The position numbers and the translations under genes are program-made. From Terriglobia bacterium (GTDB lineage: Bacteria; Acidobacteriota; Terriglobia; Acidiferrales; UBA7541), in assembly GCA_020072765.1 (NCBI GenBank), contig JAIQGD010000033.1, positions 35,557 to 99,556 of the forward strand: a DNA stretch of 64,000 nucleotides. The letters run 5' to 3'. Positions 40,929 to 62,446 of this stretch are shown piece after piece; the first letter of the stretch is position 1, and every line of letters begins with the position of its first letter. The notes beneath the pieces were generated by a model. That model was not told where the DNA came from. It made no database searches and saw nothing but the letters and a program-made list of their open reading frames with translations.

Positions 40929-42497
40929 ATGGGCGCCAAGTTTGATCTGAACGATTCGTCGGTGGTGGTCATCATCGGCTCGGGCGCCGGCGGCGGGACG
41001 CTGGCCAACGAGCTGGCGCAAAAGGGCGTTCCGGTGGTGGTGCTGGAAGCCGGGAAGCGCATCGAGATGAATGAGTACAAGAACGACGACAGCGCGGCGT
41101 TCGGCGCGTTTACGTGGCTCGACCCGCGGACCACGACGGGCAGTTGGTCGGTGGCGACGTCGTGGCCGGATCTGCCCATCTGGATTTGCAAACTCGTGGG
41201 CGGATCGACGAACCACTGGGGCGGGGTGGCGCTGCGTTTTCAGGAACACGAATTCAAGACGAGGACGGAGTACGGCGACGTCGCGGGCGCGGACCTGGTC
41301 GACTGGCCGGTGGACCTGAAGGAGATGGAGCCCTATTACGATCGCGCCGAATTAAAGATGGGCGTGAGCGGGACGCACGGGATTCCGCTCCTGCCCGTGA
41401 GCAACCACGGCAAGGTACTGTTTGCGGGGGCGAAGAAGGTCGGCTACACGAAGTACGGCGTGCCGACGATGGCGATCAATCCGTCGCCGCGCGACGGGCG
41501 CGCGGGATGCCAGCAGACCGGGTTCTGCGTGCAGGGATGCACGTTTGGCGCGAAGTGGGCGACGCTCTACACGGAAATTCCGCGGGCGGAGGCCACCGGG
41601 AAAGCCGAGGTCCGCGCCGAAGCGCAGGCGATCCGCATCGAGCACGACGCAGCGGGCAAGGTGACCGGCGTGGTGTACGCGGACGGCAGCGGTACGCTGC
41701 AACGGCAGAAGGCGCGGCTGGTGGCCGTCGCGGGCAATGCCATTGAAACCCCGCGGCTGCTGCTGAATTCCCAATCGAGCCGGTTTCCGCAGGGCCTGGG
41801 GAATTCCTCCGGGCATGTGGGGAAATACTACATGCGGCACACCACGGGAACGGTGTTCGCCGTGTTCGAAAAGCCGGTGCATATGTACCGGGGCACGGCG
41901 CAATCCGGGATCATCATGGACGAGGCGGCGCACAATCCGAAGCGGGGCTTTGCCGGCGGGTACCAGATGGAGCTGCTGCCGCAAAGCTTTCCGGGCTTCG
42001 CGCAGAATGTGGCGGGGGGTTGGGGGCGCGACCGGGCCTCGATCGTCGAGAAGTACGCGAATGCCGCGGGCGTGTGGATCATCGGCGAGGACCTGCCGCG
42101 CGGAACCAACCGGATCACCCTGCACGCGGAACGGAAAGACCGCTTCGGCATGCCCATCCCGAATATTCACTGCGACGACCATCCCAACGACGTGGCGATG
42201 CGGAACCACGGTTTCGCGCAGGCCGAAGCCGTCTACCACTCGATCGGCGCGAAGAGGACCGTGCGCGTCCCGCCGTTTCCCTCGACGCACAACATGGGCA
42301 CGGCCCGCATGTCGGAAAAGCCGCGGGACGGCGTGGTCAATCGCTTCGGGCAGGCGCACGATGTCAAGAATCTGTTCGTATCGGACGGGAGCCAGTTCCC
42401 ATCGAGCGGCGGCGAGAATCCGACGCTGACGATTGTGGCTCTGGCCATCCGGCAGGCGGAGTACATCGCCGGGCAGATGGCCAAGGGCGAGATCTAA
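40929..42497 (+). CDS. GMC family oxidoreductase
   Basis: VVVIIGSGAGGGTLANELAQKGVPVVVLEAG; GGSTNHWGGVALR; THNMGTARMSEKPRDGVVNRFGQAHDVKNLFVSDGSQFPSSGGENPTLTIVALAIRQAEYI. Confidence 0.93.
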   Translation: MGAKFDLNDSSVVVIIGSGAGGGTLANELAQKGVPVVVLEAGKRIEMNEYKNDDSAAFGAFTWLDPRTTTGSWSVATSWPDLPIWICKLVGGSTNHWGGVALRFQEHEFKTRTEYGDVAGADLVDWPVDLKEMEPYYDRAELKMGVSGTHGIPLLPVSNHGKVLFAGAKKVGYTKYGVPTMAINPSPRDGRAGCQQTGFCVQGCTFGAKWATLYTEIPRAEATGKAEVRAEAQAIRIEHDAAGKVTGVVYADGSGTLQRQKARLVAVAGNAIETPRLLLNSQSSRFPQGLGNSSGHVGKYYMRHTTGTVFAVFEKPVHMYRGTAQSGIIMDEAAHNPKRGFAGGYQMELLPQSFPGFAQNVAGGWGRDRASIVEKYANAAGVWIIGEDLPRGTNRITLHAERKDRFGMPIPNIHCDDHPNDVAMRNHGFAQAEAVYHSIGAKRTVRVPPFPSTHNMGTARMSEKPRDGVVNRFGQAHDVKNLFVSDGSQFPSSGGENPTLTIVALAIRQAEYIAGQMAKGEI

Positions 42498-42544
42498 TCG
42501 CGGCAAGGACCGATACCAAGACCCATACGGGCGGGAGACGAGAC

Positions 42545-43575
42545 GTGATCAGGCGCGCACTGGGAAATTCAGGGCTGGAAGTGGGCCCGCTGGCCTTTGG
42601 AGGAAACATCTTCGGATGGACCGCCGACGAGCCGACCTCGTTCAAATTGCTCGATGCGTTTGTGGCGGCGGGGCTGAATCTGATCGATACGGCCGACGTC
42701 TACTCGCGGTGGCTTCCGGGGCACAAGGGCGGCGAGTCGGAAACCATTATCGGCAACTGGCTGCAGCAGCGCGGCGGCCGAGAGAAGGTGGTGATCGCCA
42801 CCAAGGTCGGCGTGGAGATGGGCCCCGAAGACAAGGGGCTGTCCCGGGCCTACATCCTGCGGGCCGTGGACCGGTCGCTGGCGCGACTGAAAACGGATTA
42901 CATTGACCTGTATCAGTCCCACCGGGACGACGCGGAAACGCCGCTGGAAGAAACGCTGGAGACTTATGGGCAATTGATTCGCGCCGGAAAAGTGCGCGCC
43001 ATTGGCGCGTCCAATTACAAGGCGGGGCGTCTGGCGGAGGCGCTTCGGGTCAGCGCCGCGAAGGGCCTGCCACGATATGAGACGCTGCAGCCCTGGTACA
43101 ACCTCTACGACCGCGCGGAGTTCGAGGGAGAGCTGGCGAGTCTTTACCGGCGTGAAAATCTCGGCGTGATCAGTTATTTTTCGCTGGCCAGCGGATTTCT
43201 CACAGGAAAATATCGCTCGGCGAAGGATCTGGAGGGCAAGGCGCGCGGCTATCGCGTGAAGGATATGATGAACGAGCGCGGCTTCGCGTGAAGGATATGA
43301 TGAACGAGCGCGGCTTCCGCATCCTGGCCGCGCTGGATATCGTGTCGAAGGATCTGGGCGCCACGTTGGCCCAAGTGTCGCTGGCGTGGCTGGTGGCGCA
43401 CGGGGTCACCGCGCCCATCGCCAGCGCCACGAGTCTCGATCAACTGCAGGAATTGATTGGGGCGACGAAGCTGAAGCTGAGTCCCGACGCTGTACGCCTG
43501 CTGGATGATGCGAGCAAGGCCGATCCGGCCGCCGCCGAGCGAGAGGTTCGGACGCCCCCTCCGAGCGCGAGATAG
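42545..43575 (+). pseudogene. Aldo/keto reductase interrupted by a 32-bp tandem duplication
   Basis: IRRALGNSGLEVGPLAFGGNIFGWTADE...LNLIDTADVYSRW...IGASNYKAGRL; frame ends at TGA 43289-43291; the remaining C-terminus lies in the next frame (43288-43575). Confidence 0.85.
43254..43317 (+). repeat. Perfect 32-bp tandem duplication
   Basis: gcgtgaaggatatgatgaacgagcgcggcttc at 43254-43285 and 43286-43317. Confidence 0.97.
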
Positions 43576-45471: not shown

Positions 45472-45485
45472 GTGACCGAAATCAC
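45472..45485. promoter_or_regulatory. GTGA-N6-TCAC palindrome
   Basis: GTGACCGAAATCAC, 91 bp upstream of the 45576 start. Confidence 0.45.
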
Positions 45486-45575
45486 CGAGTCGGGTGAGGC
45501 GGCTCACAAACGGCGCCCTGCGAATCGAGAGAAGATGCCTGCGGGTGCCATCAGAGGCCTTGGGGGCGTGCGGCC

Positions 45576-48500
45576 ATGGGGATACGAGTCGGTCTTGACG
45601 TCGGAAGCGTGAGCGTCAAGCTGGCAGCGGTAAGCGCAATTGATCGGTTCGAGGGTTGTGCTGGGCCGGTCGCGGAAGTGAAGAACTTCCATGTTGTTTC
45701 TCCCGAATTGGTACGGCACACAGGCCTGAACCTTCTCATCTCCGACTACCTCCGCACTTTTGGCAATCCCACGCAAGCTGCCCAGGATTTGCTCGCTGGA
45801 TTTCAGGCCGCCTTCGGAGATGTGGACAGCCAGCAAATACGCGTGACCGGCATGTGCGGGCGGAAAGTGGCGGAACTGCTGGGCATCGCTTACGAGAACG
45901 AATTCAAGGCCATAGCCAGGGGAACGTCGGTGTTTTATCCCGGCGTGCGCACGATCTTCGAGATGGGAGGGGAGAGCTCGAAGTACATGCTATTGGACAA
46001 CCCCGGGGCTGAATGCAGCGCCGCGGCGCACCCGCGAGAACGATTCGGCGGAGGCATACTGGATTACTCGACCAGCGGCGAGTGCGCGGCGGGAACGGGT
46101 TCGTTCATCGACCAGCAGGCTTCGCGGCTGCGGTATCGCGTGGAAGAAATCGGCGCGATCGTGTCGCAGGCGAAGACGGCCGCGCGGATTGCGGGGCGGT
46201 GCTCCGTCTTCGCGAAGTCGGACATGATTCACGCGCAGCAGAAGGGCTATGCCACCGATGAAGTGCTGAAGGGACTGTGCGAGGCGGTGGCGCGGAATTT
46301 CAAGAGCAACATTGTGCGGGGCAAGAAGGTAGTCCCGCCGGTGGCGTTTGTGGGCGGCGTATCGCAGAACGCCGGGGTGACGCAGGCTCTGGCGGAGGCA
46401 TTTCATCTCGGCCCGGCGGAAATCCTGGTGCCGGAATTGTACGCGTGGCTCGGCGCCATCGGCGCGGCGTTGCTGGAAGAGGCCGCGTGGCGCAGCGAAG
46501 CGTCCGGGCCGAGAGTCGTGTCGACGGGAGGCGTGGTTGGCGGGCGTGATGCCGCCGCTGCGTCCGCACATGAGCCGCTCGGGCTGGGGAATGTCCTGCT
46601 GCTCCGCGATCGTAGCGAGGCATCGAGGACCGAGCCCTTGCCCGCCGGGAGTGAGCAAAGACTGCCTGTGTTTCTTGGGATTGACGTCGGCTCGGTGAGC
46701 ACCAATCTCGCCGTGCTGGACGAAGCGGGGCGCCTGCTGCACGGCATCTATCTGCGAACGGCGGGACGGCCGATTGAAGTGGTGCAGGACGGGCTGCGGG
46801 AAATCGACCAGCTTTTGGGCTCGCGCATTGATGTGCGCGGCGTGGGCACGACGGGCTCAGGCCGCGAGCTGATTGGAGAATTGGTCGGGGCGGACACCGT
46901 GAACGACGAGATCACCGCGCACAAGACCGGAGCGGTCTATGTCCACGACACGCTCGTGCTGGGGCGCTCGGGCGCGGACGGGGGTAATGCGGGCAACGCT
47001 CTCGGCCCGGTGGACACGATCTTCGAAATCGGCGGCCAGGATTCGAAATTCATCTCGCTCGACCGCGGAGTAGTGGTGGACTTCGCCATGAACGAAGCCT
47101 GCGCCGCGGGCACCGGCTCGTTCCTGGAGGAGCAGGCCGAGCGCATGGGGATTCAAATCAAGGATGAATTCGCGCGCCTGGCGCTGTCCTCGGGCGCTCC
47201 CGCGCGGCTGGGGGAGCGCTGCACGGTGTTCATGGAGCGCGACGTCACCGGCGCGATGCAGCGCGGTGCGAAACTCGAAGATCTGACGGCCGGGCTGGCG
47301 TACTCGGTGGCGTTGAACTATTTGAACCGCGTCGTGCGGGGCCGCAAGATCGGCAACGTGATCTACTTTCAGGGCGGCACGGCATACAACGACGCGGTCG
47401 CGGCGGCATTCTCCCGGCTTCTTGGAAAGCGCATCATTGTGCCTCCGCACAACGGGATCATCGGCGCCATCGGGATGGCGTTGATCGCGCAGCAGGTGAT
47501 GCGAACCCGAACCCGCGCGCACGCCACGCAGGATAACGGCGCACGGCGCGGGCTCGATCGGCGGCAGGGGATTTCGACGTTCCGCGGCTTCGATCTGGAG
47601 CGCACGCCCTTTGAAACGCGCGAATTCGTGTGCAAGGCCTGCTCGAACTACTGTGACATGAAGGAGATCACGGTCGAGGGCCGGAAGACGTATTGGGGCG
47701 ATAAATGCTCGGACAAGTTCCGCAAGCGCGTGCGCACCGACCGCCAGCCGGTGATCGCGGATCTGCTGGCGTTTCGCGATGAAGTGTTGCGCGACGGCCA
47801 TCGGGCGGGGCCGGAAGGCAATGGAGCCCGCGCGCCCTCGCGATCGATGCGCATCGGCGTTCCGCAGGGGATGTATTTCTACGACCGGTTTCCGTTCTGG
47901 CGCGCCTATCTCGAGACGCTGGGATTTGAAGTGGTGGTCTCCGAGCCGACCGACCGGCATATCGCCACCCGCGGCGCGGAGTTGAGCGTGGCGGAGCCGT
48001 GTTTTCCGGTGCAGATCACCCACGGGCACGTGCAGAGGCTGCTCGAGGAAAAACCAGGAGATCGTCCTCTGGACTATGTGCTGTTGCCGAATGTGGTGGA
48101 CATGGAAGCGCCGGCGTCTCCCATCGCCTCGCAACTGTGTCCCTGGAACCAGACCCTTCCGTTCGTGGTGCGATCGGCTCCGGCAATTTTCCCGTGTGCG
48201 CAGAAAGTGCTGGCGCCGACCATCCATTTTCGGCTGGGCCGCGAGCACGTGAAGCGCGAACTGGCGGACTGCTTCGCGGGCCTGGGCGTGAGCCGCAGGG
48301 AGAGCAACGCAGCCGTGGATATTGCCTACCAGGCGCAGGCAACGTTCACCCAGCGGCTGCTCGCGGCGGGACGCGAGGCCTGCGCTGTGCTCGACGAGAC
48401 GCGCGAGCCCGCGATTCTGGTGGTCGGCCGGCCGTACAACATCTACGACCGCAGCAGCAATTGCGATATTCCCCGGAAACTGCGCGACCTGTATGGCGTG

Positions 48501-48818
48501 AACGTGGTGCCGCTGGACTTTCTCCCGCTGGATGAGCATGCCAGCGACGACCTGCATCCCAACATGTTCTGGAATTCGGGGCGGCGGATTCTGGAGGCAG
48601 GGCGCTTCGCCCGCCTCCACGCGAACTTTCATATTCTCTACGTCACGAACTTCAAGTGCGGGCCCGATTCCTTCATCAAGCACTTTCTGCGCGATGTGGC
48701 CGGAGCTCCTTTTCTCGTGCTGCAATTCGACGGGCACGGCAACGATGCCGGCTACTTGACGCGCTGCGAGGCCTATCTCGACAGCAAGGGGGTCTTGCGA
48801 TGTTCTTCTCCCAACTGA
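45576..48818 (+). CDS. Fused tandem BadF/HgdC-type activase (two ASKHA domains) + DUF2229/COG3580-like domain
   Basis: GLDVGSVSVKLAAV and GIDVGSVSTNLAVL; GECAAGTGSF/GRCSVFAKSD and EACAAGTGSF/ERCTVFMERD cluster Cys; CKACSNYC motif; C-terminal RIGVPQGMYFYDRFPFWRAYLETLGFEVV...PCFPVQITHGHV. Confidence 0.9.
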   Translation: MGIRVGLDVGSVSVKLAAVSAIDRFEGCAGPVAEVKNFHVVSPELVRHTGLNLLISDYLRTFGNPTQAAQDLLAGFQAAFGDVDSQQIRVTGMCGRKVAELLGIAYENEFKAIARGTSVFYPGVRTIFEMGGESSKYMLLDNPGAECSAAAHPRERFGGGILDYSTSGECAAGTGSFIDQQASRLRYRVEEIGAIVSQAKTAARIAGRCSVFAKSDMIHAQQKGYATDEVLKGLCEAVARNFKSNIVRGKKVVPPVAFVGGVSQNAGVTQALAEAFHLGPAEILVPELYAWLGAIGAALLEEAAWRSEASGPRVVSTGGVVGGRDAAAASAHEPLGLGNVLLLRDRSEASRTEPLPAGSEQRLPVFLGIDVGSVSTNLAVLDEAGRLLHGIYLRTAGRPIEVVQDGLREIDQLLGSRIDVRGVGTTGSGRELIGELVGADTVNDEITAHKTGAVYVHDTLVLGRSGADGGNAGNALGPVDTIFEIGGQDSKFISLDRGVVVDFAMNEACAAGTGSFLEEQAERMGIQIKDEFARLALSSGAPARLGERCTVFMERDVTGAMQRGAKLEDLTAGLAYSVALNYLNRVVRGRKIGNVIYFQGGTAYNDAVAAAFSRLLGKRIIVPPHNGIIGAIGMALIAQQVMRTRTRAHATQDNGARRGLDRRQGISTFRGFDLERTPFETREFVCKACSNYCDMKEITVEGRKTYWGDKCSDKFRKRVRTDRQPVIADLLAFRDEVLRDGHRAGPEGNGARAPSRSMRIGVPQGMYFYDRFPFWRAYLETLGFEVVVSEPTDRHIATRGAELSVAEPCFPVQITHGHVQRLLEEKPGDRPLDYVLLPNVVDMEAPASPIASQLCPWNQTLPFVVRSAPAIFPCAQKVLAPTIHFRLGREHVKRELADCFAGLGVSRRESNAAVDIAYQAQATFTQRLLAAGREACAVLDETREPAILVVGRPYNIYDRSSNCDIPRKLRDLYGVNVVPLDFLPLDEHASDDLHPNMFWNSGRRILEAGRFARLHANFHILYVTNFKCGPDSFIKHFLRDVAGAPFLVLQFDGHGNDAGYLTRCEAYLDSKGVLRCSSPN

Positions 48819-50075
48819 GCCGCGGCGGCGCCCCGGCGCCGCCTGGGCCGCTGGCCGGAAAAAAACTGTGGTTGCCGCCGATGTCCGATGCTCCCGCGCG
48901 CGCCCTCGCCGCCGTGTTCCGGTCGCTGGGCGTGGATGCGGAATGCACGCCGCGGTCGGATGCGCGCACCCGAGAGCTCGGCGCGCGCCACACCAACGGC
49001 GACGAGTGCTATCCAACCAAGGTCACCATGGGCGATTATTTGAAAGTGCTGGAGCGGCCGGGAACCGACCCGCGGAAAACCGCCTTCTTGATGGCCACGG
49101 GGCAGGGCCCGTGCCGCTTCGGGCAGTATCTGCCGTACCTGAGATCGGTCCTGGAGACGCTGGGCTACCGCGACGTCACCCTGCTTTCACCCTCGTTCGA
49201 GAATGGCTACAGCGACCTGGGAGAGAATTCCACGCACTTCGTGAGGAGCGGGTGGCGGGCGATTGTCTCTTCGGACATTTTGCGCAAACTGCTGCTGAAG
49301 GCGCGTCCGTATGAAGCCATTCCCGGCGCGGCGGATGCGGTCCATGAGGAATGTGTGCGCGACCTGTGCCGTGTCCTCGAATGTAATCATGGCGGCTATG
49401 GCGCGCAGATGGAACGTCTTCGCGAATGCCTGCTCCGCGCCCACGGGCTGTTCCGCATGCTTCCGAGGCGCAACGGTTATGTGCGTCCCTTGATCGGGAT
49501 CGTGGGGGAGATCTTTTGCCGGCTGAATACGTTCAGCAACGAAGATCTGGTGCGGCGGTTGGAAGAGGCCGGAGCTGAAGTGTGGATGAACGATATCTCC
49601 GAGTGGATCTGGTACACGAACTCCGAGGCGTCGCGCATGTTCCGGCTGCAGGGAAGCCGGTATTCGAAAACGGCGCTGGCGTCATGAGCACGACCTGGTG
49701 TCTCTGTTTCGCGACGAGTTTCGCGGATATGAGGAGCCCGAGGATATTCAGGAGTTGCTCGACTACGCCGAGCCGTATCTTCCCGCGATGAGCACTTCGG
49801 GCGAGATGGTCGTGAACATCGGGAAGACCGTGTATTTTGCCCGCAAGGGCCTGGACGGAGTGATCGACATCAGCCCGTTTACGTGCATGAACGGGATTGT
49901 CTGCGAGGCCATCTATCCGCGCGTCAGCCGCGATAACGCCGGAATTCCGATCCGCAATTTCTACTTTGATGGGACGCAATCGGACCTCGACCGCGACATC
50001 GGCATCTACCTCGAACTGGCGCGCAGTTACCAGCAACGCAAACCCTGGCCCCGGGTTCATTCCTCGGCCGCCTGA
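48800..50075 (+). pseudogene. HgdB/COG3581-like double-cubane protein in two frames (48800-49687 and 49698-50075)
   Basis: NGDECYPTKVTMGDYLK, GQGPCRFGQYLPYLR in frame 1; SLFRDEFRGYEEPEDIQELLDYAEPYLP...ISPFTCMNGIVCEAIYPRVSRDNAGIPIRNFYFDGTQSDLDRDIGIYLELARSYQ in frame 2. Could also be two expressed ORFs or a sequencing error. Confidence 0.75.
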
Positions 50076-51907: not shown

Positions 51908-53101
51908 ATGAAAGGTCCGGCGATCGACCAGGACTCCACGATCCCGAAGACGGCGGCTGAGGAAGCGCCAGCCCCGGGGTCTGGAGGGGGAACCAGACCG
52001 AAGAGGTGGGTGCAAACTCTACTGATCGCAGGGGTTGCGGAGGCAGCGTTGATCGGACTGTCGCTGCGCATTTTACCGGGACTACTTCGAAAGCCGCCCC
52101 GAGACGTTATCGTCGCCAGTGGAAGAATCGAGGGACGCGAAGTCACTCTGGCCCCCAAAGAGATTCAGGGACGCGTCAAGAGCCTGCGCGTAGACGAGGG
52201 TTATACCGTCAAGAAGGGGCAACTCCTGGCGGAATTGGAATCCGACCAGCTCGACGCGCAGCTCGCGAGTGCCCATGCCAGCGTCGCGACTCTGGATGCG
52301 CAGATCAAGCAAGCCTCGATCGACGTGGCTTACACCACCAAGAACACAGCTGCTTCCGCAGCCGCCGCCGAGGCGGCTGTGAGCAGCGCGAAGGCCCGTC
52401 TCGCGCATTCGAAAGCTGTGCTGACCAACACGAGCGCGGAATATCAGCGCGCGCTGGGCCTCTACAATCAAGGCGTCGTTTCCAAGAGCGCCTTGGACGC
52501 GGCGACGATGAACTACCAGACAAGCCAAGCCGATGTCGAGGCATCCGAAAAGGAACTCGCGCAGGCGGAAGCGAATCTCAAGGTCGCAGAGGCCGCGAGG
52601 GACACGGTGGAGCTGAAGGTTCAGCAACTGCGGGCGTTGCAACAGAGCCGTCAATCGGCCCTGGCACAGCTCGGTGTAGCTCAGGCCAACATCGCGGAGC
52701 GCAATATCTACGCTCCGGCGGACGGGACGATACTTGCGAGGCCGGTCGAAGTGGGCGATGTCGTCACTCCGGGTGCTCCGCTTTTCGTGATGGTGGATAT
52801 GAACCGGCTGTACGTGAAGGTCTACATTCCCGAGCCCGATATCCCGAAGATTAAGTTGGGAGACCGAGCGGAAGTGACCGTGGACGCTTTTCCTGGCAGG
52901 AAATTCGAGGCGCGGGTCACCAAAGTCTACCAACAGGCTGAATTTACTCCGAAGAATGTGGAGACCAAGGAAGAGCGCGTAAAGCTCGTGTTCGGCGTCG
53001 AGCTGACATTTGTGAACCCGGAAGGAATTCTTAAGCCGGGGATGCCCGCCGATGGCGCCATCCATTGGAAGGCGGTGCCGCCCCAGCAAGGATCGAAATG
53101 A
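51908..53101 (+). CDS. HlyD family secretion protein (YhiI/YbhG-like)
   Basis: VASGRIEGREVTLAPKEIQGRVKSLRVDEGYTVKKGQLLAELESDQLDAQLASAHASV...IYAPADGTILARPVEVGDVVTPG. Confidence 0.92.
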   Translation: MKGPAIDQDSTIPKTAAEEAPAPGSGGGTRPKRWVQTLLIAGVAEAALIGLSLRILPGLLRKPPRDVIVASGRIEGREVTLAPKEIQGRVKSLRVDEGYTVKKGQLLAELESDQLDAQLASAHASVATLDAQIKQASIDVAYTTKNTAASAAAAEAAVSSAKARLAHSKAVLTNTSAEYQRALGLYNQGVVSKSALDAATMNYQTSQADVEASEKELAQAEANLKVAEAARDTVELKVQQLRALQQSRQSALAQLGVAQANIAERNIYAPADGTILARPVEVGDVVTPGAPLFVMVDMNRLYVKVYIPEPDIPKIKLGDRAEVTVDAFPGRKFEARVTKVYQQAEFTPKNVETKEERVKLVFGVELTFVNPEGILKPGMPADGAIHWKAVPPQQGSK

Positions 53102-55014
53102 CGCCGGAATCTCAGCCGGTTATTGACGTCAAAAGACTGGGGCGATTTTATGGGCGCCGCAAGAGGGTGCAGGCGATCCGAGACGTTTCGTTCGAGGTTG
53201 GCCGCGGGGAAATTTTCGGCCTGATTGGTCCCGACGGAGCCGGTAAGACCAGTATCATTCAGATCCTGGCGGGCGTGCTGAGCGCCGATCAAGGCTCGGT
53301 GGCGGTGGGTGGAGTCGACGTTGTCGCCGATCCTGAGGCGGTGAAAAGCCGAGTCGGCTACATGCCCCAAGGGCTCGGCGTGAACCTTTATGAAAGCCTC
53401 TCGGCCGCCGAGAACATCGACTTCTTCCGGGATTTGCGAAAACTGCCCGAAGACGCCTACCGAAGGAATCGCGCTGATCTTCTGAGCATGACCCGCCTCG
53501 AGCCCTTCCTGAGCCGGCGCGCGGGCAATCTTTCCGGCGGGATGCGCCAAAAGCTCGCTCTGATCTGCACGCTGATCCATTTGCCCGACTTGATTCTTCT
53601 GGACGAGCCCACGACAGGTGTGGACCCCATTTCCCGGCAAGATTTCTGGCACATCATCCGGCGACTGGTGGAAGAGCGACAGGTGACCGTACTGCTCAGC
53701 ACGTCTTACATGGACGAGGCCGAACGTTGCCATCGGATCGGACTGCTTCACTCGGGCGCGATCCTCTGGCAAGGGACGCCGGGGGAAATCAAACAGAAGG
53801 CAGAAGGACGCTACGCCAGGATCACCGCGGAACCACAGACGGCCGCCCTCCATATTCTTCGCAACCGGAGCGATGTGACGTCCACGGAAGTCTTCGGGGA
53901 AGAAATCCACATCCGATTTGGGGGGGATTTGAAGGAGATGGAAGCGGGTTTGAGTGCCGAAAAGATCGACGTTCGCCAAATCTCACCTCTGGAACCGACT
54001 CTCGAAGACGTCTTCTTGCAGCTTCTGACCACGGGAAAATCGCAAGCACCCAGGCTTCCTCTTCCTCCGTCACGCGAACGCATCAGTCCGGTCACGATTG
54101 AATGCCGCGGGCTGACTCGCCGGTTTGGCGAGTTCGTGGCCGTGGACAACGTCGACCTTCACGTCGAACGGGGAGAGATTTTTGGTCTGCTCGGCCCGAA
54201 CGGGGCGGGCAAGACCACTGTGATCAAAATGATGTGCGGACTGCTGGGGCCGACCGCCGGTGTAATTCGCGTGGCCGGATTGGACATCAAGACGGAGAAG
54301 GAGCGCGTGTGGACGCAGATCGGTTACATGTCGCAGCACTTTTCGCTGTATCGGGATCTGAGCGTGAAGCAGAACTTGCGGCTGTACGCGGACCTGTACG
54401 GCGTGCGGGATGTGAAATTCAGCGACGTGACGGCGTCCCTGGGGCTCGAACCGTTCGAGTCGCGGCTGGCGGGAGACCTGCCTGCCGGGCTACGGCAACG
54501 ATTGTCCTTGCTCTGTGCCGTGCTGCACAGACCCCCCGTGCTGTTTCTGGACGAGCCTACCTCGGGCGTTGACCCTCCGGCGCGCCGGACTTTTTGGGAT
54601 CTGATCTATTCGCTGTCGCGCGAATCATCCGTCACCGTGCTGGTATCGACGCACTACATGGACGAGGCCGCGCACTGCGATCGGCTCGGCCTGATGGATC
54701 AAGGGCGTTTGATCGCGGTGGATTCGCCGCCGGCGCTCAAACAGGCATCGGAGCGCCATTCCGGGAAGATGCTCGCGATTCGCGCGCCGAAGTTACGAGT
54801 GGCGTTCGACGCCATTGTGTCCGGTTTTCCTATGGCTGTCCTTTACGGGGATAGCATTCACGTGCGAAGCCTCGATCCCGTGGTCGACGAGCGGAAGGCT
54901 TTGTCGTTGTTGAGCCGCTCCGGCATCACGGGCGCGGAGATCAGTTCACCGGCTCTCTCGATGGACGAAACGTTCATCGATTTCATCCGCCGTGGGGAGA
55001 GGGTCCATGCATAG
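53098..55014 (+). CDS. ABC transporter with two fused ATP-binding domains
   Basis: Two Walker A (GPDGAGKTS, GPNGAGKTT), LSGGMRQKLAL and LPAGLRQRLSL, LLDEPTTGVDP and FLDEPTSGVDP. Confidence 0.94.
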   Translation: MTPESQPVIDVKRLGRFYGRRKRVQAIRDVSFEVGRGEIFGLIGPDGAGKTSIIQILAGVLSADQGSVAVGGVDVVADPEAVKSRVGYMPQGLGVNLYESLSAAENIDFFRDLRKLPEDAYRRNRADLLSMTRLEPFLSRRAGNLSGGMRQKLALICTLIHLPDLILLDEPTTGVDPISRQDFWHIIRRLVEERQVTVLLSTSYMDEAERCHRIGLLHSGAILWQGTPGEIKQKAEGRYARITAEPQTAALHILRNRSDVTSTEVFGEEIHIRFGGDLKEMEAGLSAEKIDVRQISPLEPTLEDVFLQLLTTGKSQAPRLPLPPSRERISPVTIECRGLTRRFGEFVAVDNVDLHVERGEIFGLLGPNGAGKTTVIKMMCGLLGPTAGVIRVAGLDIKTEKERVWTQIGYMSQHFSLYRDLSVKQNLRLYADLYGVRDVKFSDVTASLGLEPFESRLAGDLPAGLRQRLSLLCAVLHRPPVLFLDEPTSGVDPPARRTFWDLIYSLSRESSVTVLVSTHYMDEAAHCDRLGLMDQGRLIAVDSPPALKQASERHSGKMLAIRAPKLRVAFDAIVSGFPMAVLYGDSIHVRSLDPVVDERKALSLLSRSGITGAEISSPALSMDETFIDFIRRGERVHA

Positions 55015-56140
55015 CCGCATTCTGGCGATCGTACGCAAGGAGACGAGGGAGGTGCTTCGCGATCCGATCTATTTAGGGCTGGCGATTGCCGTGCCTGTGG
55101 TCGTCATGACTCTTCTCGGATTGGGCTTCGTGCTGGACGTTAAGAACCTGCCGGTGGCCTTTTACGATCAGGATCGGAGTTCGCTCAGCCGGGAATACAT
55201 CTATTCCTTCACCAATTCGGAGTACTTCCATCTCGTAGGGCTGGTGAACGATCCGGCCCAGTTGGACCACATGATTCGATCCGCGGAAGTGCGCGCGGTG
55301 GTTGTGATCCCGCCGGATTTTTCGCGCAAGCTGAGCGCCGGAAAGCCCGCCACGGTGCAGATCCTTGTGGATGGTTCCTTCGCCACCCGTGCGCTGGTAG
55401 TCACCGGCTATGTTGCGGCTATCGATGCGCAGTTCAACGCCCAACTGGCGGCGGACTATCTCGCGAGAAGAGGTGTGGTGGCGACGACTCTACTGCCTGT
55501 GTCCGTGGAAGGCCGGGTCTGGTACAACCCGTCGCTCGAGACGAAGAATTCCATCGTGCCGGGGTTGCTGGTAATCAACCTGATGTTCTATCCGAGCTTG
55601 CTGGCGGCGCTGGTGGTGGTGCGGGAGAAGGAACGGGGCACGATCTTCAATCTCTACTGCTCGCCCGTGCGGCGGTGGGAGGTGATTGTGGGGAAAGCCG
55701 TCCCGTATATCGGTGTTGCGCTGGCCGACTATTTTCTTCTTTTTGCGCTCAGCATGGTGGTGTTCCAGGTGAGATTCGTCGGGAACTTTTTCGTGCTGAC
55801 TCTGGCGGCGCTGCTTTACATTTGTTGCTGCGTCGGGCTGGGGCTGGTCATCTCCGTCCTGTGCCGGACGCAAGTCGCCGCCATCTTGATAACGTTCGTG
55901 GGCTTGATGACTCCTTCGATGCTGTTTTCAGGGATGCTCACTCCCATCGCAAGCATGGATCGTTCGGCGCAAATGATCAGCCGTGTGATTCCGGCGTCGT
56001 ACTTCATGGGCATGGCGCGCGGCGTGTTCTTGAAAGGGCTGGGGTTTTACTACTACATCCCGGATTTTCTTACGCTGTGCGCGTTCGCTTTCGTGGTCTA
56101 TGGGATTGCGATCATCGCCTTCCGGAAGAAGGTGGGCTGA
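55007..56140 (+). CDS. ABC-2 type permease 1 (YhhJ/YbhS-like)
   Basis: ILAIVRKETREVLRDPIYLGLAIAVPVVVMTLLGLGFVLDVKNLPVAFYDQD...VREKERGTIFNLYCSPVRRWEVIVGK. Confidence 0.92.
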   Translation: MHSRILAIVRKETREVLRDPIYLGLAIAVPVVVMTLLGLGFVLDVKNLPVAFYDQDRSSLSREYIYSFTNSEYFHLVGLVNDPAQLDHMIRSAEVRAVVVIPPDFSRKLSAGKPATVQILVDGSFATRALVVTGYVAAIDAQFNAQLAADYLARRGVVATTLLPVSVEGRVWYNPSLETKNSIVPGLLVINLMFYPSLLAALVVVREKERGTIFNLYCSPVRRWEVIVGKAVPYIGVALADYFLLFALSMVVFQVRFVGNFFVLTLAALLYICCCVGLGLVISVLCRTQVAAILITFVGLMTPSMLFSGMLTPIASMDRSAQMISRVIPASYFMGMARGVFLKGLGFYYYIPDFLTLCAFAFVVYGIAIIAFRKKVG

Positions 56141-56141
56141 G

Positions 56142-57275
56142 ATGCTGCGCCGGTTGAGCGGTTTGATTCGGAAGGAATTCGTTCAGATCTTCCGGGACCG
56201 TGCGCTGGTCATCATTCTGCTTTGGGCATTTACGGCCGCCATTTTCACATCGGGACGCGGCAGGGCGATGGAGATTACGAACGTGCCGGCCGTGGTATAC
56301 GACTTGAGCCGAAGCCCGGCCAGCCGCGAGTTCCTGAGCCACCTGCAGCTGCCCTATTTCAAAATCGTGGCATACCTCAATCGGGATCAAGAAATCGCCC
56401 CGTGGCTGGACAGCGGCAAAGCGTCCATTGTGGTCGTGATTCCTCCGGACTTCCAGCGAAGAGTCGATGGAGCGGGACAAGCGCAAGTCCAGGTGATTAC
56501 CGATGGCGCTCTCGCCATGCCTGCGACCATCGCGGTTGCCTACATCGCGGAGATTTCCAGCGACTACTCCATTTCCGTTCTGGAACGGCGCGCCAGCGCC
56601 GCCGGATTCAGCCTGAGCAGCCTTCCCAGCATCGATCAGCGCGTGCGCGTGCAATTTAACCCGAACATGCTCAGCTCGTGGTTCAGCAGCCTGCTTGAGC
56701 TGTTCAACATGTTCACCATGGTGTCCTTGCTGCTGACCGCAGCCGATTTGGTGAGGGAGAAGGAGCACGGCACGCTTGAGCAATTGCTCGTCAGCCCGGC
56801 GCGTTCCATAGAAATCTTTCTGGCGAAGATTATTCCTACCGTCGTGCTGGTGCTCGGCCTTTCTGTGCTCAGCTTTGTCCTGGTCTTGAGACCTGTATTC
56901 CACGTTCCGATCCGTGGGAGTCTCGTGCTGTTTTATAGCGTCGCTGCGCTCTACGTGTTCGCCATGACGAGCATGGGAATCGCCATTGCGGTCGTGGCGC
57001 GGAACCTGGCGCAGGCCATGATGATCATGCTGCTGATCCTGCAGCCCATGATTTTTCTATCGGGAGCGTGGAATCCGCCGGAGGCCATGAGCCGCTGGAT
57101 GCGCTGGCTCAGCCTGATCTCTCCGTTGCGGTACTTCATTGATTTCGGTTATGGAGTGATTTTGAAAGGTAACGGGCTTTCGTTTGTCGCGTGGGACATC
57201 GTCGGCATCGCCGTTCTGGGAACGGCCCTTTTCGGGTTCTCGGTCTGGTGGTTTGAACGAAGTCTCTCACGATGA
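56142..57275 (+). CDS. ABC-2 type permease 2 (YbhR-like)
   Basis: SGLIRKEFVQIFRDRALVIILLWAFTAAIF...VREKEHGTLEQLLVSPARSIEIFLAKIIP. Confidence 0.92.
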   Translation: MLRRLSGLIRKEFVQIFRDRALVIILLWAFTAAIFTSGRGRAMEITNVPAVVYDLSRSPASREFLSHLQLPYFKIVAYLNRDQEIAPWLDSGKASIVVVIPPDFQRRVDGAGQAQVQVITDGALAMPATIAVAYIAEISSDYSISVLERRASAAGFSLSSLPSIDQRVRVQFNPNMLSSWFSSLLELFNMFTMVSLLLTAADLVREKEHGTLEQLLVSPARSIEIFLAKIIPTVVLVLGLSVLSFVLVLRPVFHVPIRGSLVLFYSVAALYVFAMTSMGIAIAVVARNLAQAMMIMLLILQPMIFLSGAWNPPEAMSRWMRWLSLISPLRYFIDFGYGVILKGNGLSFVAWDIVGIAVLGTALFGFSVWWFERSLSR

Positions 57276-57335: not shown

Positions 57336-58580
57336 TCATGTCAGATTCGGCCGGACCGGCAAAACCGCCCCCTGTGTTTGTGGCAATTGTCCTGACGAAA
57401 TGGCAGGGAAGGGGCCGTTGGGAGGCAGCAGGGCCAGCTTCTTGCGGATGACATCCTGCGAATACTTCGCCAGGTAGTGGACAATGGTTTCGACGCGGAT
57501 GCGGATGCTTCCCGTGGGCTTGGTGGCGTCCAGATCGCCGAATTTGAAGAACAGCGTGCCCGTGGCTTCGACGATCTTCTGCGTGGGCGTGTAGGTCGGC
57601 TGGTCCATCCCGCATTCATAGCTGGAGAGGCGGATCACGCAGGTGATCCAGGGACAACGCGCGGCCACCTTGGCGCCCCACAGAATCTCATTGGTATTGC
57701 TGCTGTAGGACGACGTCCAGACATCGGAGATATCCAGCGGATGTTTGATGTGGCCGCTGCGGAGGTCTTCGGCAAACAGCCAGTTCATCAGATCGTCATC
57801 GGCGGGAAGGTATTGCAGCCAGAGGATGGGATAGCCGTGCGCCTGCAATTCGCCTTCGATGTCGTGGCCGATTCCCGTATCCATGTGATAGGGGCGCGCC
57901 AGGATCAGGATGCAGGGTTTGCTGTGTTCCGCGCACCAGGACAAAATCTCGCGGCTCCGGCTCCGGGCTTTGGCTTCAAAGTTGTCCAGCGCCTCATACC
58001 CAGCCTGCACCGCCCGCTGCGTTTCCTCGAGGTCCAGATCGAAAATATCCTTCAGGGAGGCATGAAGCTGCTCCGCCGCCATGTGCCGGTCGCCAAGGCA
58101 CACGAATGGCGCGGCGTGCGTGATCCCGTTTTCGGCGAAGACATCGCGCTCCTTCAGGAAGCCGGCCTTGGTGTTTTCCGGCCCGGCCGCTACCCGGCTG
58201 CACGTGGCCGTGTCCACCACGTGGCCGCGCAGGACGGAGGGCAGGGAGAAGATCATGGGGCTGAAGAGAACGTCGATTTTCTTTTTCTGGCCAAAGATGA
58301 GCTCCCCATAATGGCCGCTCATGCATTTGACGGGGAAGCAGCAATCCACCGTGCCGCGGCCCTTGCCGAATTCGCGGCCCTGCTCCTCGGAAGTATCCGA
58401 ACTGAAAACGATGTTTTCCGAGGATACCCCCAGTGCCTTGAGAAAACCCACCCAGAACTGGTGGGTCGTCCAGATATTGAGGACCTTGGGGATGCCGACG
58501 CGGAGCCGCGAGCGGTCCTTAGGCGGACACGCGGCGGAAGGCTTCTTTCCGAACCACGTCGGCGATATTCGGATACGCAT
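57336..58580 (-). CDS. DUF2229/COG3580-like acyl-CoA dehydratase activase-related protein
   Basis: RLRVGIPKVLNIWTTHQFWVGFLKALGV...GTVDCCFPVKCMSGHYGELI...ARPYHMDTGIGHDIEGELQAHGYPILWLQYLPADDDLMNWLFAEDLRSG; start uncertain. Confidence 0.85.
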   Translation of the reverse strand: MRIRISPTWFGKKPSAACPPKDRSRLRVGIPKVLNIWTTHQFWVGFLKALGVSSENIVFSSDTSEEQGREFGKGRGTVDCCFPVKCMSGHYGELIFGQKKKIDVLFSPMIFSLPSVLRGHVVDTATCSRVAAGPENTKAGFLKERDVFAENGITHAAPFVCLGDRHMAAEQLHASLKDIFDLDLEETQRAVQAGYEALDNFEAKARSRSREILSWCAEHSKPCILILARPYHMDTGIGHDIEGELQAHGYPILWLQYLPADDDLMNWLFAEDLRSGHIKHPLDISDVWTSSYSSNTNEILWGAKVAARCPWITCVIRLSSYECGMDQPTYTPTQKIVEATGTLFFKFGDLDATKPTGSIRIRVETIVHYLAKYSQDVIRKKLALLPPNGPFPAISSGQLPQTQGAVLPVRPNLT

Positions 58581-60861
58581 CTTTTGTCTTCTCGATTCCG
58601 GTCCGGATGACCTTCATCTCGCTGACGTCCTCGACCAGTCCCTTGGGGCAGGAATTATTCACCACCACGCGCTCCCAGCCCTCGCTGACGGGAACTTTGC
58701 TCCACGGACGTCCTTTTCCTCCCACCAACTGCACGTCGATAAAACTCCGCTGGCAGTTGACCGGGCACCAGTGGCACACCGTGTCGACCGAGGTGGTCGT
58801 CTTGTAGGACAGTCCCTCGACCGTTTCGAATCCCCGGAAGGTGGTCTGGCCTCCTCGCTCCCACCAGTCCAGCCCCACCAGGGCCGCGCCGATGGCTCCG
58901 GCCTCGCCGGAGTAGGGATGCACCACGACTTCCGCGTCGGGCACCTTGGAGAGAATGAAATCCACCTGCGTTTTCACGACGGCGAGGTTGCGATGCGTGC
59001 CGCCTTGTAGGATGTATTTCCTTCCGACCTGGCGGAGATTGTTCAGCCCGCCCGCGTAGATCCACACATTCAGGGGCAGAATGGCGCAGAGAGCGGCGAG
59101 AATTTCGTCCGCGTGCCAGCCTTTGCGCTGCTGGTTGACGATGTCGCTTTGCAGGAAGACGCCGCAGCCCATGGAAAGCTGCGGCATGGCCTGTGCCCGG
59201 AAGGCGCCGTCGGCGATTTCGTTCATGGGGATTTGAAAGCGTTCGGCGACGCCCTGCAGAAAGGCTCCATTGCCGGAGGAACACTGCGAGTTCAGGCGGA
59301 AATCGGTGACGGCGCCGTTGTTCAGAATCATGATCTTCACGTCCACGCCGCCGACATCGCAGATGCAATCCGCGTCGGGGAAATAGTGGAGGCCCGCGGT
59401 GGCGTGCGCGATGGTTTCCACCACGGGGCAATCGGCGCCCAGGATGTCTTTCAGAAGATCCTTGCCGTACCCCGTGATCGCCAGGGACAGAACCTCTCCG
59501 TCCCCCAGCGCCTCGCGAATCTGCCGGAACAGCACCTTGGCGTCTTCGATGGGATTTCCCTTGCTGAGGGCGTAACAGGAAAACACCAGCTCTTTTTCCG
59601 GCGAAATGCACACGGCCTTGGCCGTCGTGGACCCGAAGTCACAGCCGATCGAAACCGGGCCAAGCCCTTCGACGGGCTCGTCGTTGGGTATCTCGAGAAT
59701 CGCCGCCGTGCCGTTGCCGCCGCCCTGGCCGGTTCCATGGCTCCGGCCGTGGCCGTTGCCGCCCGCGTGGTTCACCTGGTCCGTCCGGCCGTAGCGGGTT
59801 TTGAAGGCATTCAATTCCTCGATGTCCTTCCACAGTCCGCCGCGGCCCATCTTTTTCTTTTCCTCGAATTGCCCTTCCTCGATCCACCACCGGAGCTTGG
59901 CCGTCCCGTTGTAGAGGGCCGCGGTCTGCGATTCGCGCCGCGCCAGTTCAATGCAGCCCTGCGCGGCGTAGTACAGCGCATCGTCCGGCACATGAATCAG
60001 GGAGGCCGGGTCCCTGCCGGCGGGGAGCTCGACGCGTCGCTCCTGCCAGAGTTGCAGCAGGTGATGTCTCCACGCCTCCTGCAAACCCAAGAAGAAGAGA
60101 TTGGGTCCGCCGAGAAGCAGGATTTCCGGCGCGGGAGTATTGCCGCGCGTGAGCGTGGCCAGATTCTGGTACACCACCGCTTCGAACAGGGAAGCGATGA
60201 TTTCCTCGACGGAGACGCCGGCCTTCAGCAGGGTGTTGGCGTCGGCTTCGGCAAAAATTCCGCACTTGCTGCTGATTTTGTGCAGCGTGCGTCCGGAGTA
60301 GGACATCTTGGCGAGTTCTTCCGGCGCAATTTCCAGCTTGCGGGCGGTCTTTTCGATGAAGGTGCCGGTGCCGCCCGAGCAGGCGCTTTGCATCAGCACC
60401 TGCTTGCTTTTGGTGTTGGCGCTTCCGGTGAAGAAGATCGTCTTCATGTCCTCCCCGCCGATTTCACTGACGAAGTGAACCGAGGGATGGAGTCTTTCGA
60501 CGGCGGCGGCGACGGCTACGACTTCCTGGATGACCTTTCCCCCCGCCAGGGGCGCGATCAGCCCCGCACCGGAGCCGGTGAAGAAGAGAAGGTCGCGGTG
60601 CGGAGTAAAGCCGTGGGTGCGTTCCAGGCCGATGAGGAATCCGAGGACCTTTTCGGCCTGTTTGGTGTTGTGGCGTTCGTAGGCCTGCGCGAGGACGTCG
60701 CCCTGGGCCGAGGCCAGCACAAACTTGCAGGTCGTGCTGCCCACGTCAATCCCGCAGAACAACTGGCCCTCCGCGCGGACGGGCGGGGTTTCCGGCACAT
60801 CGTGCGGCGCGGGTAAGCTGCCCGAGAGGGCGCCGATTTGAACTAAATTGCCGCTAGCCAT
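58519..60861 (-). CDS. Tandem BadF/HgdC-type acyl-CoA dehydratase activase (two ASKHA domains)
   Basis: GIDVGSTTCKFVLA and GCDFGSTTAKAVCI; QSACSGGTGTF/SSKCGIFAEAD and SQCSSGNGAF/MGCGVFLQSD; CHWCPVNC near C-terminus. Confidence 0.9.
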   Translation of the reverse strand: MASGNLVQIGALSGSLPAPHDVPETPPVRAEGQLFCGIDVGSTTCKFVLASAQGDVLAQAYERHNTKQAEKVLGFLIGLERTHGFTPHRDLLFFTGSGAGLIAPLAGGKVIQEVVAVAAAVERLHPSVHFVSEIGGEDMKTIFFTGSANTKSKQVLMQSACSGGTGTFIEKTARKLEIAPEELAKMSYSGRTLHKISSKCGIFAEADANTLLKAGVSVEEIIASLFEAVVYQNLATLTRGNTPAPEILLLGGPNLFFLGLQEAWRHHLLQLWQERRVELPAGRDPASLIHVPDDALYYAAQGCIELARRESQTAALYNGTAKLRWWIEEGQFEEKKKMGRGGLWKDIEELNAFKTRYGRTDQVNHAGGNGHGRSHGTGQGGGNGTAAILEIPNDEPVEGLGPVSIGCDFGSTTAKAVCISPEKELVFSCYALSKGNPIEDAKVLFRQIREALGDGEVLSLAITGYGKDLLKDILGADCPVVETIAHATAGLHYFPDADCICDVGGVDVKIMILNNGAVTDFRLNSQCSSGNGAFLQGVAERFQIPMNEIADGAFRAQAMPQLSMGCGVFLQSDIVNQQRKGWHADEILAALCAILPLNVWIYAGGLNNLRQVGRKYILQGGTHRNLAVVKTQVDFILSKVPDAEVVVHPYSGEAGAIGAALVGLDWWERGGQTTFRGFETVEGLSYKTTTSVDTVCHWCPVNCQRSFIDVQLVGGKGRPWSKVPVSEGWERVVVNNSCPKGLVEDVSEMKVIRTGIEKTKDAYPNIADVVRKEAFRRVSA

Positions 60862-62446
60862 TGCTGGCACCTCCCGTTTCGAGGGCCACGCCGGAGGGAG
60901 TTTGCCGCCGCGCTCCCGCCAGGCCGCGCCTTTGCGCGAGGTAATGGATGTAGTTCGCGGCCGCTCCCGCGTAGCCCATGTGCGGCACACGGTAGGTGGC
61001 GCGCCGGAGTTCGGGATGTTCGGCTTCGTATTCCCGGATGCGCTCGACGGTCAGGCCCGTTTTTTCGAGCGCCTCGTCGAATTCCGTCTGGGCGCGCCGC
61101 TTCGCCTCCGTCAGGATCATCTGGCAGCGGGAAAGCGCGTGCACCTCCGCGTCACCTTTGACTTCAATCGGGGCATAGAGCAGATCCGGATATTTGCCGG
61201 TGACATTGGCCATGGATCCGATCGACATGGTGTTGGGCATGCAGGAGTAGGGCGAAAGCTCGCAAATCATGTGCGCTTTTTTGTGGTGATAGGCATACAG
61301 CGCCTTGCCGATCAGCATGTGCCCTTCGCCGCCGCGCAGCTCGAAGTGGTAGTAGGGCTCCGCCAGCCGCCGGAGTTCCTCCTGGTCCGGCAACTCGGAG
61401 GGCAGATTCCCCAGCGCTTTGCGGAAGCGGTTGTAAGTGACGCGAAACAGGCGTTCCACCGCGTGCATGGCCACGTGCTCGGTCCGGGGGTGCTTGCTGG
61501 TCTGGTTGCGGTGTTCGAGCTTGCGGATGGTGGGATGCATCAGGTAGTGCAGCCACACCGCGACGGGAGGCGGCGCGACTTCCGCCTCTTCCTGTTCGAG
61601 CCAGCGCTTGATGTTGTAGTTTCCCTCGCCTTCGTGCGTCTGCAGCCAGAACTCGCCCGTGATTTTCACCCGGGGCTTGGCTTGCAGGCGGTCCACCTCG
61701 ATGGTGTCCCACTTCTTCCGGATTTCCCGGAGCGCGCCGGTGAAATAATTTCCCGCCAGGTGCCAGAGCAGCGTGTGGAACTTCCCCTTGGGAAGAGGCC
61801 TCGCGCGCAGGACTTCGTACAGGTATTCGATGCTCTCCTTTAGCACTTGCTCAGTTTTTCCCGGGACGGTCTCGTAGGGGCGGGTCATGTATTCCAGGTC
61901 CGCCAGCTGATCGGCGCAGAAGATTCCCCAGATGATGCCCAGGCTCAGAGGCAGGTTGACCTCCAGCCCGCCGCCGCCGCTCGGCCCCTGGTCCAGTTCA
62001 TCCTGGGCCAGCAGCATCATGCGAAAGTCGCGGAGGCCCAGGCCATCGAGCGCCATGGCGTAGGATTCGTGGTACTGGCCGAAGCGGCAGGGTCCGCACG
62101 CGCCGACGGTCATGTACGCGTAGTTGTCCTTCACCGCCTGCTGGCCCTCGGCGGCCACTTTCTTCTTGAGAAGATTGACCAGGCTTCCGGTGGTGAAGAT
62201 GGTGGGGCAGCAGGCGCCCACGTCGATCAGTTCCTTGCCGGCGTCGAGGTCTTCGCGCGCGATATTGGGCAGGGGTTCGGCCTTGTACCCCATGTTGTGC
62301 AGCGCGCCTTGCATCAGCCGCTCGTGCTTCCAGCTGAGTCCGCCGAACAGGATGGTGACCTTGTCGCGTTCATTGCGCGTAAAAGGTCGCGGTTTGTAGG
62401 CCCGGTAGTGGTTGATCACCGGCAACGTGGCAAGCTCGCTCATCAC
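60854..62446 (-). CDS. HgdB/COG3581-like 2-hydroxyacyl-CoA dehydratase-related protein
   Basis: DKVTILFGGLSWKHERLMQGALHNMGYKAEPLP...DVGACCPTIFTTGSLVNLL...TVGACGPCRFGQYHESYAMALDGLG...ELSPYSCMPNTMSIGSM; overlaps the activase start. Confidence 0.88.
   Translation of the reverse strand: MMSELATLPVINHYRAYKPRPFTRNERDKVTILFGGLSWKHERLMQGALHNMGYKAEPLPNIAREDLDAGKELIDVGACCPTIFTTGSLVNLLKKKVAAEGQQAVKDNYAYMTVGACGPCRFGQYHESYAMALDGLGLRDFRMMLLAQDELDQGPSGGGGLEVNLPLSLGIIWGIFCADQLADLEYMTRPYETVPGKTEQVLKESIEYLYEVLRARPLPKGKFHTLLWHLAGNYFTGALREIRKKWDTIEVDRLQAKPRVKITGEFWLQTHEGEGNYNIKRWLEQEEAEVAPPPVAVWLHYLMHPTIRKLEHRNQTSKHPRTEHVAMHAVERLFRVTYNRFRKALGNLPSELPDQEELRRLAEPYYHFELRGGEGHMLIGKALYAYHHKKAHMICELSPYSCMPNTMSIGSMANVTGKYPDLLYAPIEVKGDAEVHALSRCQMILTEAKRRAQTEFDEALEKTGLTVERIREYEAEHPELRRATYRVPHMGYAGAAANYIHYLAQRRGLAGARRQTPSGVALETGGASNG

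Follow-up and report, generated by a model that had tools for sequence, protein, structure and literature searches.

A tandem activase with a DUF2229 region and its partner protein as a candidate ATP-driven reductase module in an acidobacterial genome

Archerases, the ATP-dependent activases of the HgdC/BadF type, drive three classes of reductive enzymes: the 2-hydroxyacyl-CoA dehydratases (HAD; HadIBC and HgdCAB), the class I benzoyl-CoA reductases (BCR; BcrABCD, BzdNOPQ, and MbdONPQ), and the double-cubane cluster protein with its reductase (DCCP/DCCP-R). Homodimeric activases spend two ATP per electron and typically have the GGxD aspartate in both ATP sites, whereas class I BCR activase pairs lack it in one subunit. 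In class I BCR, ATP is spent stoichiometrically per electron (PMC11971306). Here we analyze a locus from a soil bacterium of the Terriglobia (Acidobacteriota; assembly GCA_020072765.1, contig JAIQGD010000033.1), located in a stretch of 64,000 nucleotides (the window, whose own numbering is used below). Gene A of this locus encodes a 1080-aa protein with two activase domains, a four-cysteine motif, and a DUF2229 region, and gene B encodes its partner. We propose, with a probability of about 0.6, that A and B together constitute one self-contained ATP-driven low-potential reductase module, in which the tandem domains would form a pseudo-dimeric activase, and DUF2229 and B its acceptor.

Protein A compared with the described systems

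Gene A is one intact open reading frame (ORF), and its orthologs in 10 relatives are full-length with 59-69% identity. The features of A in the window are the following.

45576..48818, plus strand: gene A, 1080 aa, with two ASKHA (activase) domains, a four-Cys motif, and DUF2229, in this order; Pfam and NCBIfam matches above cut-off
45576..46490, plus strand: BadF/HgdC-type activase domain 1; PDB matches to HadI (3.4e-23) and MbdQ (6.4e-20)
45975-45977, plus strand: S134 of domain 1 in the phosphate-2 motif EMGGESSK, with Ser where Asp is usual, from alignment column counts
46083-46085 and 46200-46202, plus strand: C170 and C209 of domain 1, in the motifs CAAGTGSF and RCSVF
46665..47495, plus strand: activase domain 2; PDB match to MbdQ (1.5e-25); D489 in 91/91 homologs
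47100-47102 and 47220-47222, plus strand: C509 and C549 of domain 2, in the motifs CAAGTGSF and RCTVF; phosphate-2 motif EIGGQDSK intact
47631..47708, plus strand: CxxCxxxC-x17-C motif of C686, C689, C693 (CKACSNYC), and C711, candidate ligands of a cluster that would relay electrons from the activase to the acceptor; Cys in 91/91 homologs
47808..48800, plus strand: DUF2229, a putative HGD-D-like acceptor module with three invariant cysteines, C809, C855, and C1028; PF09989

Two stretches of A match PF01869 (BcrAD_BadFG; E 3.7e-59, 200.9 bits against a cut-off of 31.5), and A scores 242.1 bits with TIGR00241 (CoA_E_activ; cut-off 125.4). Residues 759-982 match PF09989 with 164 bits (E 4.6e-49 to 5e-48; gathering cut-off 29.4). 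These profile searches bear out the two ATPase domains and the DUF2229-like region proposed in an earlier note on this DNA, which also described the CAAGTGSF, RC(S/T)VF, and CKACSNYC cysteines correctly; the start that it gave for the locus, 45472, is upstream of the gene, the ATG of which is at 45576. The PDB matches of each activase domain include HadI, HgdC, MbdP/MbdQ, and the DCCP reductase, and the assignment of A as an HgdC/BadF-type activase with tandem domains is well supported by homology. The architecture of tandem activase and DUF2229 is shared with 90 other proteins.

Cysteines are found at positions 170, 209, 509, 549, 686, 689, 693, and 711 in all 91 aligned homologs, and the two pairs are spaced by 39 residues in domain 1 and 40 residues in domain 2. 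Because the four cysteines of the activase domains are invariant and so similarly spaced, it is plausible that the domains form an intramolecular pseudo-dimer with one [4Fe-4S] cluster on C170/C209/C509/C549.

The HgdC-type cysteine pairs, together with the acceptor fold and three-Cys sites per subunit, are shared with HadIBC and HgdCAB; however, HadI and HgdC are homodimers of a single domain, whereas A has both domains in one chain, and the A-B locus contains neither of the CoA-transferase and acyl-CoA dehydrogenase genes. Class I BCR resembles it in the two-part activase with one Asp-lacking subunit (GGQT in MbdP and GGQS in P-type subunits of relatives) and in the heterodimeric acceptor, the fold of which is matched by the model of B. 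In contrast to class I BCR, the activase domains of A are fused in one chain with DUF2229 and an extra four-Cys motif, B has no HGD-D Pfam match, and no aromatic-degradation genes are found nearby. The similarity to DCCP/DCCP-R comprises activase homology (7yyl_E) and a weak match of DUF2229 to the DCCP C-terminus and its CPY motif. Within the DUF2229 (PF09989)/COG3580-COG3581 family itself, which is already known in Pfam and COG, the tandem activase domains with DUF2229 and a B-type partner, split or fused, are the common pattern; the locus is unremarkable within it apart from the damage to its partner gene, B adjoining A but being frameshifted in this assembly, and belongs to a split clade distinguished by the absence of the phosphate-2 Asp from domain 1. 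No characterized member of the family was found in the literature searched.

DUF2229 and protein B as a probable acceptor half

The earlier note regarded the locus as having no dehydratase. No PF06050, CoA-transferase, or acyl-CoA dehydrogenase gene indeed adjoins the locus, and neither A nor B of the window matches PF06050, but the idea of a missing partner is not supported, since DUF2229 is a homolog of B and both are linked to the D-component family (HGD-D, HadBC, and BzdNO). Alignment of the B and DUF2229 profiles (hhalign E 3.8e-7, 202 columns) places C809 on C69 and C855 on C104, residues of B being numbered as in the intact ortholog L035. The DUF2229 Pfam domain is matched by 28 of 34 B proteins. 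Conversely, PF06050 (HGD-D) is matched by 21 of 57 DUF2229 regions (best E 4.7e-5), and any other family by at most three. A Foldseek search with the AlphaFold model of L035 B (pLDDT 77, pTM 0.82) returned only four PDB matches with E<0.001, two chains of HadBC (3o3m) and two chains of BzdNO (8s02), which suggests the HadBC/BzdNO fold for B.

Examination of the invariant cysteines revealed three in DUF2229 (C809/C855/C1028) and four in B (C69/C104/C239/C371). The spacing of C69, C104, and C371 (35 and 267) resembles that of the [4Fe-4S] ligands Cys95, Cys128, and Cys380 of BzdO (33 and 252; PMC11971306), and the third cysteine of both DUF2229 and B is aligned with the third cysteine of a BcrC-like profile (A5). 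A three-Cys ligand pattern is present in both proteins, and each is predicted to bind a cluster. The DUF2229-B homology, the HGD-D matches, the HadBC/BzdNO fold, and the cysteine spacing indicate that a dehydratase- or reductase-like half is probably built into A and B; no earlier description of such an acceptor role was found in the literature searched. The double-cubane analogy drawn by the earlier note is unlikely to extend to this half: a double cubane needs six Cys ligands, for which the three and four invariant cysteines are too few. The acceptor would, moreover, be heterodimeric and not homodimeric as in DCCP.

Under the proposed mechanism, one electron from a ferredoxin-like donor would enter the [4Fe-4S] cluster bridging the paired activase domains, and ATP use would drop its potential. 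From there the electron could reach a heterodimer of DUF2229 and B, possibly via a further cluster on C686/C689/C693/C711. This heterodimer would resemble HadBC or BzdNO in its build; either half probably holds a [4Fe-4S] cluster bound by three cysteines, and the substrate would be reduced or activated at one of these acceptor clusters.

Several observations weigh against this reading. The predicted structure of the whole 1080-aa protein has low confidence (pTM 0.40), the TM-scores of the Foldseek matches of B are modest (0.38-0.49), and the direct hhalign comparisons of DUF2229 or B with BCR acceptor profiles are weak (P 0.009-0.5). B proteins have no HGD-D Pfam match, and the own B of this genome is in two pieces. 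Sequence-only comparison of B with solved structures gave no meaningful match.

The genomic linkage of A and B was surveyed in 61 genomes (the own one and 60 relatives), where close homologs of A and of B occur in the same 11, and by a scan of GTDB genomes, which yielded at least 568 confirmed relatives of A from many phyla, mostly uncultured. The locus counts given here describe a sample of the best 80 of these and ten close relatives. Of the 44 split loci in which B was detected, 42 have it on the strand of A and no more than 200 nt downstream; in the other clade A and B are fused into proteins of about 1400 aa. No operon partner besides B is general across the 90 loci, shared neighbors being limited to near relatives. 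In four fused-clade loci (L094, L095, L112, and L122) heme-synthesis genes (HemA- and HemC-like) are found near the A-B fusion, and in seven an acylphosphatase-like gene is close upstream, possibly just by synteny of relatives.

No substrate-pathway genes are conserved near the loci of the 90 relatives, and this would also suit a different role, in which A would serve to reactivate some other metalloenzyme or a cofactor protein whose gene lies elsewhere, with DUF2229 and B as relay or docking parts rather than catalytic ones; the extra four-Cys motif fits a relay as well. We consider such a role unlikely, as the three-Cys ligand pattern is kept in both DUF2229 and B, these proteins are homologous to catalytic subunits, and the locus is not linked to any candidate client protein.

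The search for ordinary dehydratase genes in the neighborhoods of relatives, by which the earlier note proposed to check the locus, gave HGD-D in none of 90, the positive control having worked. An HGD-D-type partner of A could in principle be encoded elsewhere, for instance on contig C121 of the same genome, in a class I BCR-like cluster that has a BcrB/BcrC-like pair. That pair, however, comes with adjacent P and Q activases of its own (L044 9156-10893), two near-complete genomes that have A and B (G034 and G051) are devoid of HGD-D genes, and the control genomes with DUF2229 have no HGD-D, which makes a distant partner very improbable. We regard the C121 cluster as the 'ordinary' system of this genome and the A-B locus as separate. 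The cluster (L044 6608-17208) includes the two HGD-D subunits, the P and Q activases, P having GGQS, and genes which by sequence reading encode a short-chain dehydrogenase/reductase, an acyl-CoA dehydrogenase, enoyl-CoA hydratases, a 3-hydroxyacyl-CoA dehydrogenase, and an amidohydrolase-like protein.

The break in gene B and other DUF2229 systems of the genome

The earlier note called the next gene COG3581-like. A homologous partner does follow A directly, but it is not one open gene; the missing 29 bp and the frameshift had gone unnoticed. The COG label itself we adopt from that note, homology to DUF2229 and the fold being what was tested here. The parts of B in the window are the following.

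48800..49687, plus strand: 5' part of gene B, 295 codons and a premature TGA, with a predicted HadB/BzdO-like fold; about 45-63% identity to intact B of relatives
49684..49689, plus strand: site where 29 bp are deleted and the frame of B shifts, from DNA alignment with 10 relatives
49698..50075, plus strand: 3' part of gene B in a different frame, carrying the FTCMNG cysteine; 62-80% identity to the C-terminus of B of relatives

The start of B at 48800 overlaps the 3' end of A, its frame ends at the stop codon 49685-49687, and the remainder is read in a different frame, beginning at 49698. Each of the ten close relatives has B as a single intact ORF of about 425-475 aa, and the 29 bp at the junction are absent only from the window sequence in this alignment; a programmed frameshift is ruled out by these two observations.

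The deletion might truly inactivate B, leaving a decaying system with A on its way out. In agreement with this, the frameshift removes the third predicted ligand cysteine, a near-perfect tandem duplication of 32 bp at 43243-43317 likewise disrupts a nearby aldo-keto reductase gene (ORFs 42020-43291 and 43288-43575), and A and B are absent from most genomes of the same genus. However, on either side of the frameshift the nonsynonymous rate (dN), about 0.17-0.35, is well below the synonymous rate (dS), about 0.9 or more, and the same holds for dN and dS in A. Because both halves still look conserved, the break is, by this measure, either recent or an assembly error. The latter is credible, because the duplication is a second frameshifting indel of about 30 bp in the same stretch, 6.4 kb upstream of the deletion, in an assembly of 152 contigs. 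The strain has either recently lost the function or its B deletion is an assembly error, and the reading of the locus as a decaying system is quite improbable.

Two further DUF2229 systems are encoded in the genome, which its position in the tree places in the Acidobacteriota, and CxxCxxxC is present in both. One of them, in the window at 57336-62446 on the minus strand, has another gene order: a 530-aa B-like protein with a GPCRFGQY motif, an 823-aa tandem activase, each domain of which has the Asp, and a separate 414-aa DUF2229 protein. In the other, on contig C19 (L045 3118-8878), a B-like protein of 674 aa precedes a protein of 1175 aa that combines a tandem activase with DUF2229. Between the two systems of the window (51908-57275), sequence reading suggests an HlyD-like membrane fusion protein, a double ATP-binding cassette (ABC) ATPase, and two ABC-2-type permeases.

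Asymmetry of the two activase domains and its meaning

In domain 2, 91/91 homologs have GGQD as the phosphate-2 motif. In domain 1, the corresponding Asp is kept in 41/41 fused-clade proteins and lost in 50/50 split-clade proteins, where A has S134. On a phylogenetic tree built without the Asp column, gene fission and Asp loss each map as one change, and the split and fused groups are divided by one branch (Shimodaira-Hasegawa-like approximate likelihood ratio test, SH-aLRT, 100). Asp is present in both domains of both paralogous systems of the genome, and this suggests that the history of the domain 1 residue is a loss and not a gain. The same asymmetry is observed in class I BCR, where MbdQ has GGQD and MbdP GGQT, and in four acidobacterial class I BCR pairs (GGQD/GGQS), each with one Asp-less subunit. 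We found no earlier description of it for DUF2229-type activases in the literature searched.

Since domain 1 of the split clade is devoid of the phosphate-2 Asp, domain 2 is probably its sole ATP hydrolyzer, with one working ATPase per pseudo-dimer. A broader interpretation, which we offer tentatively and hold to be somewhat doubtful, is that the DUF2229/COG3581 systems should be added to HAD, class I BCR, and DCCP as a fourth class of reductases driven by archerases, one with tandem activase domains, an additional relay cluster, and a HadBC-like acceptor of its own. The split-clade activase would then be a pseudo-heterodimer in one chain in which only one ATPase works, a case of convergence with class I BCR.

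The relatives of A are annotated just as 'CoA enzyme activase uncharacterised domain'. With DUF2229 and its partner recognized as the probable acceptor half, what looked like an orphan activase becomes an enzyme of two proteins that is open to testing and would work at the very lowest biological redox potentials. The coincidence of gene fission with the loss of one ATPase Asp offers a direct test of how archerases set the ATP cost per electron. If the fourth-class interpretation is true, the split clade is expected to use one ATP for each electron and not two.

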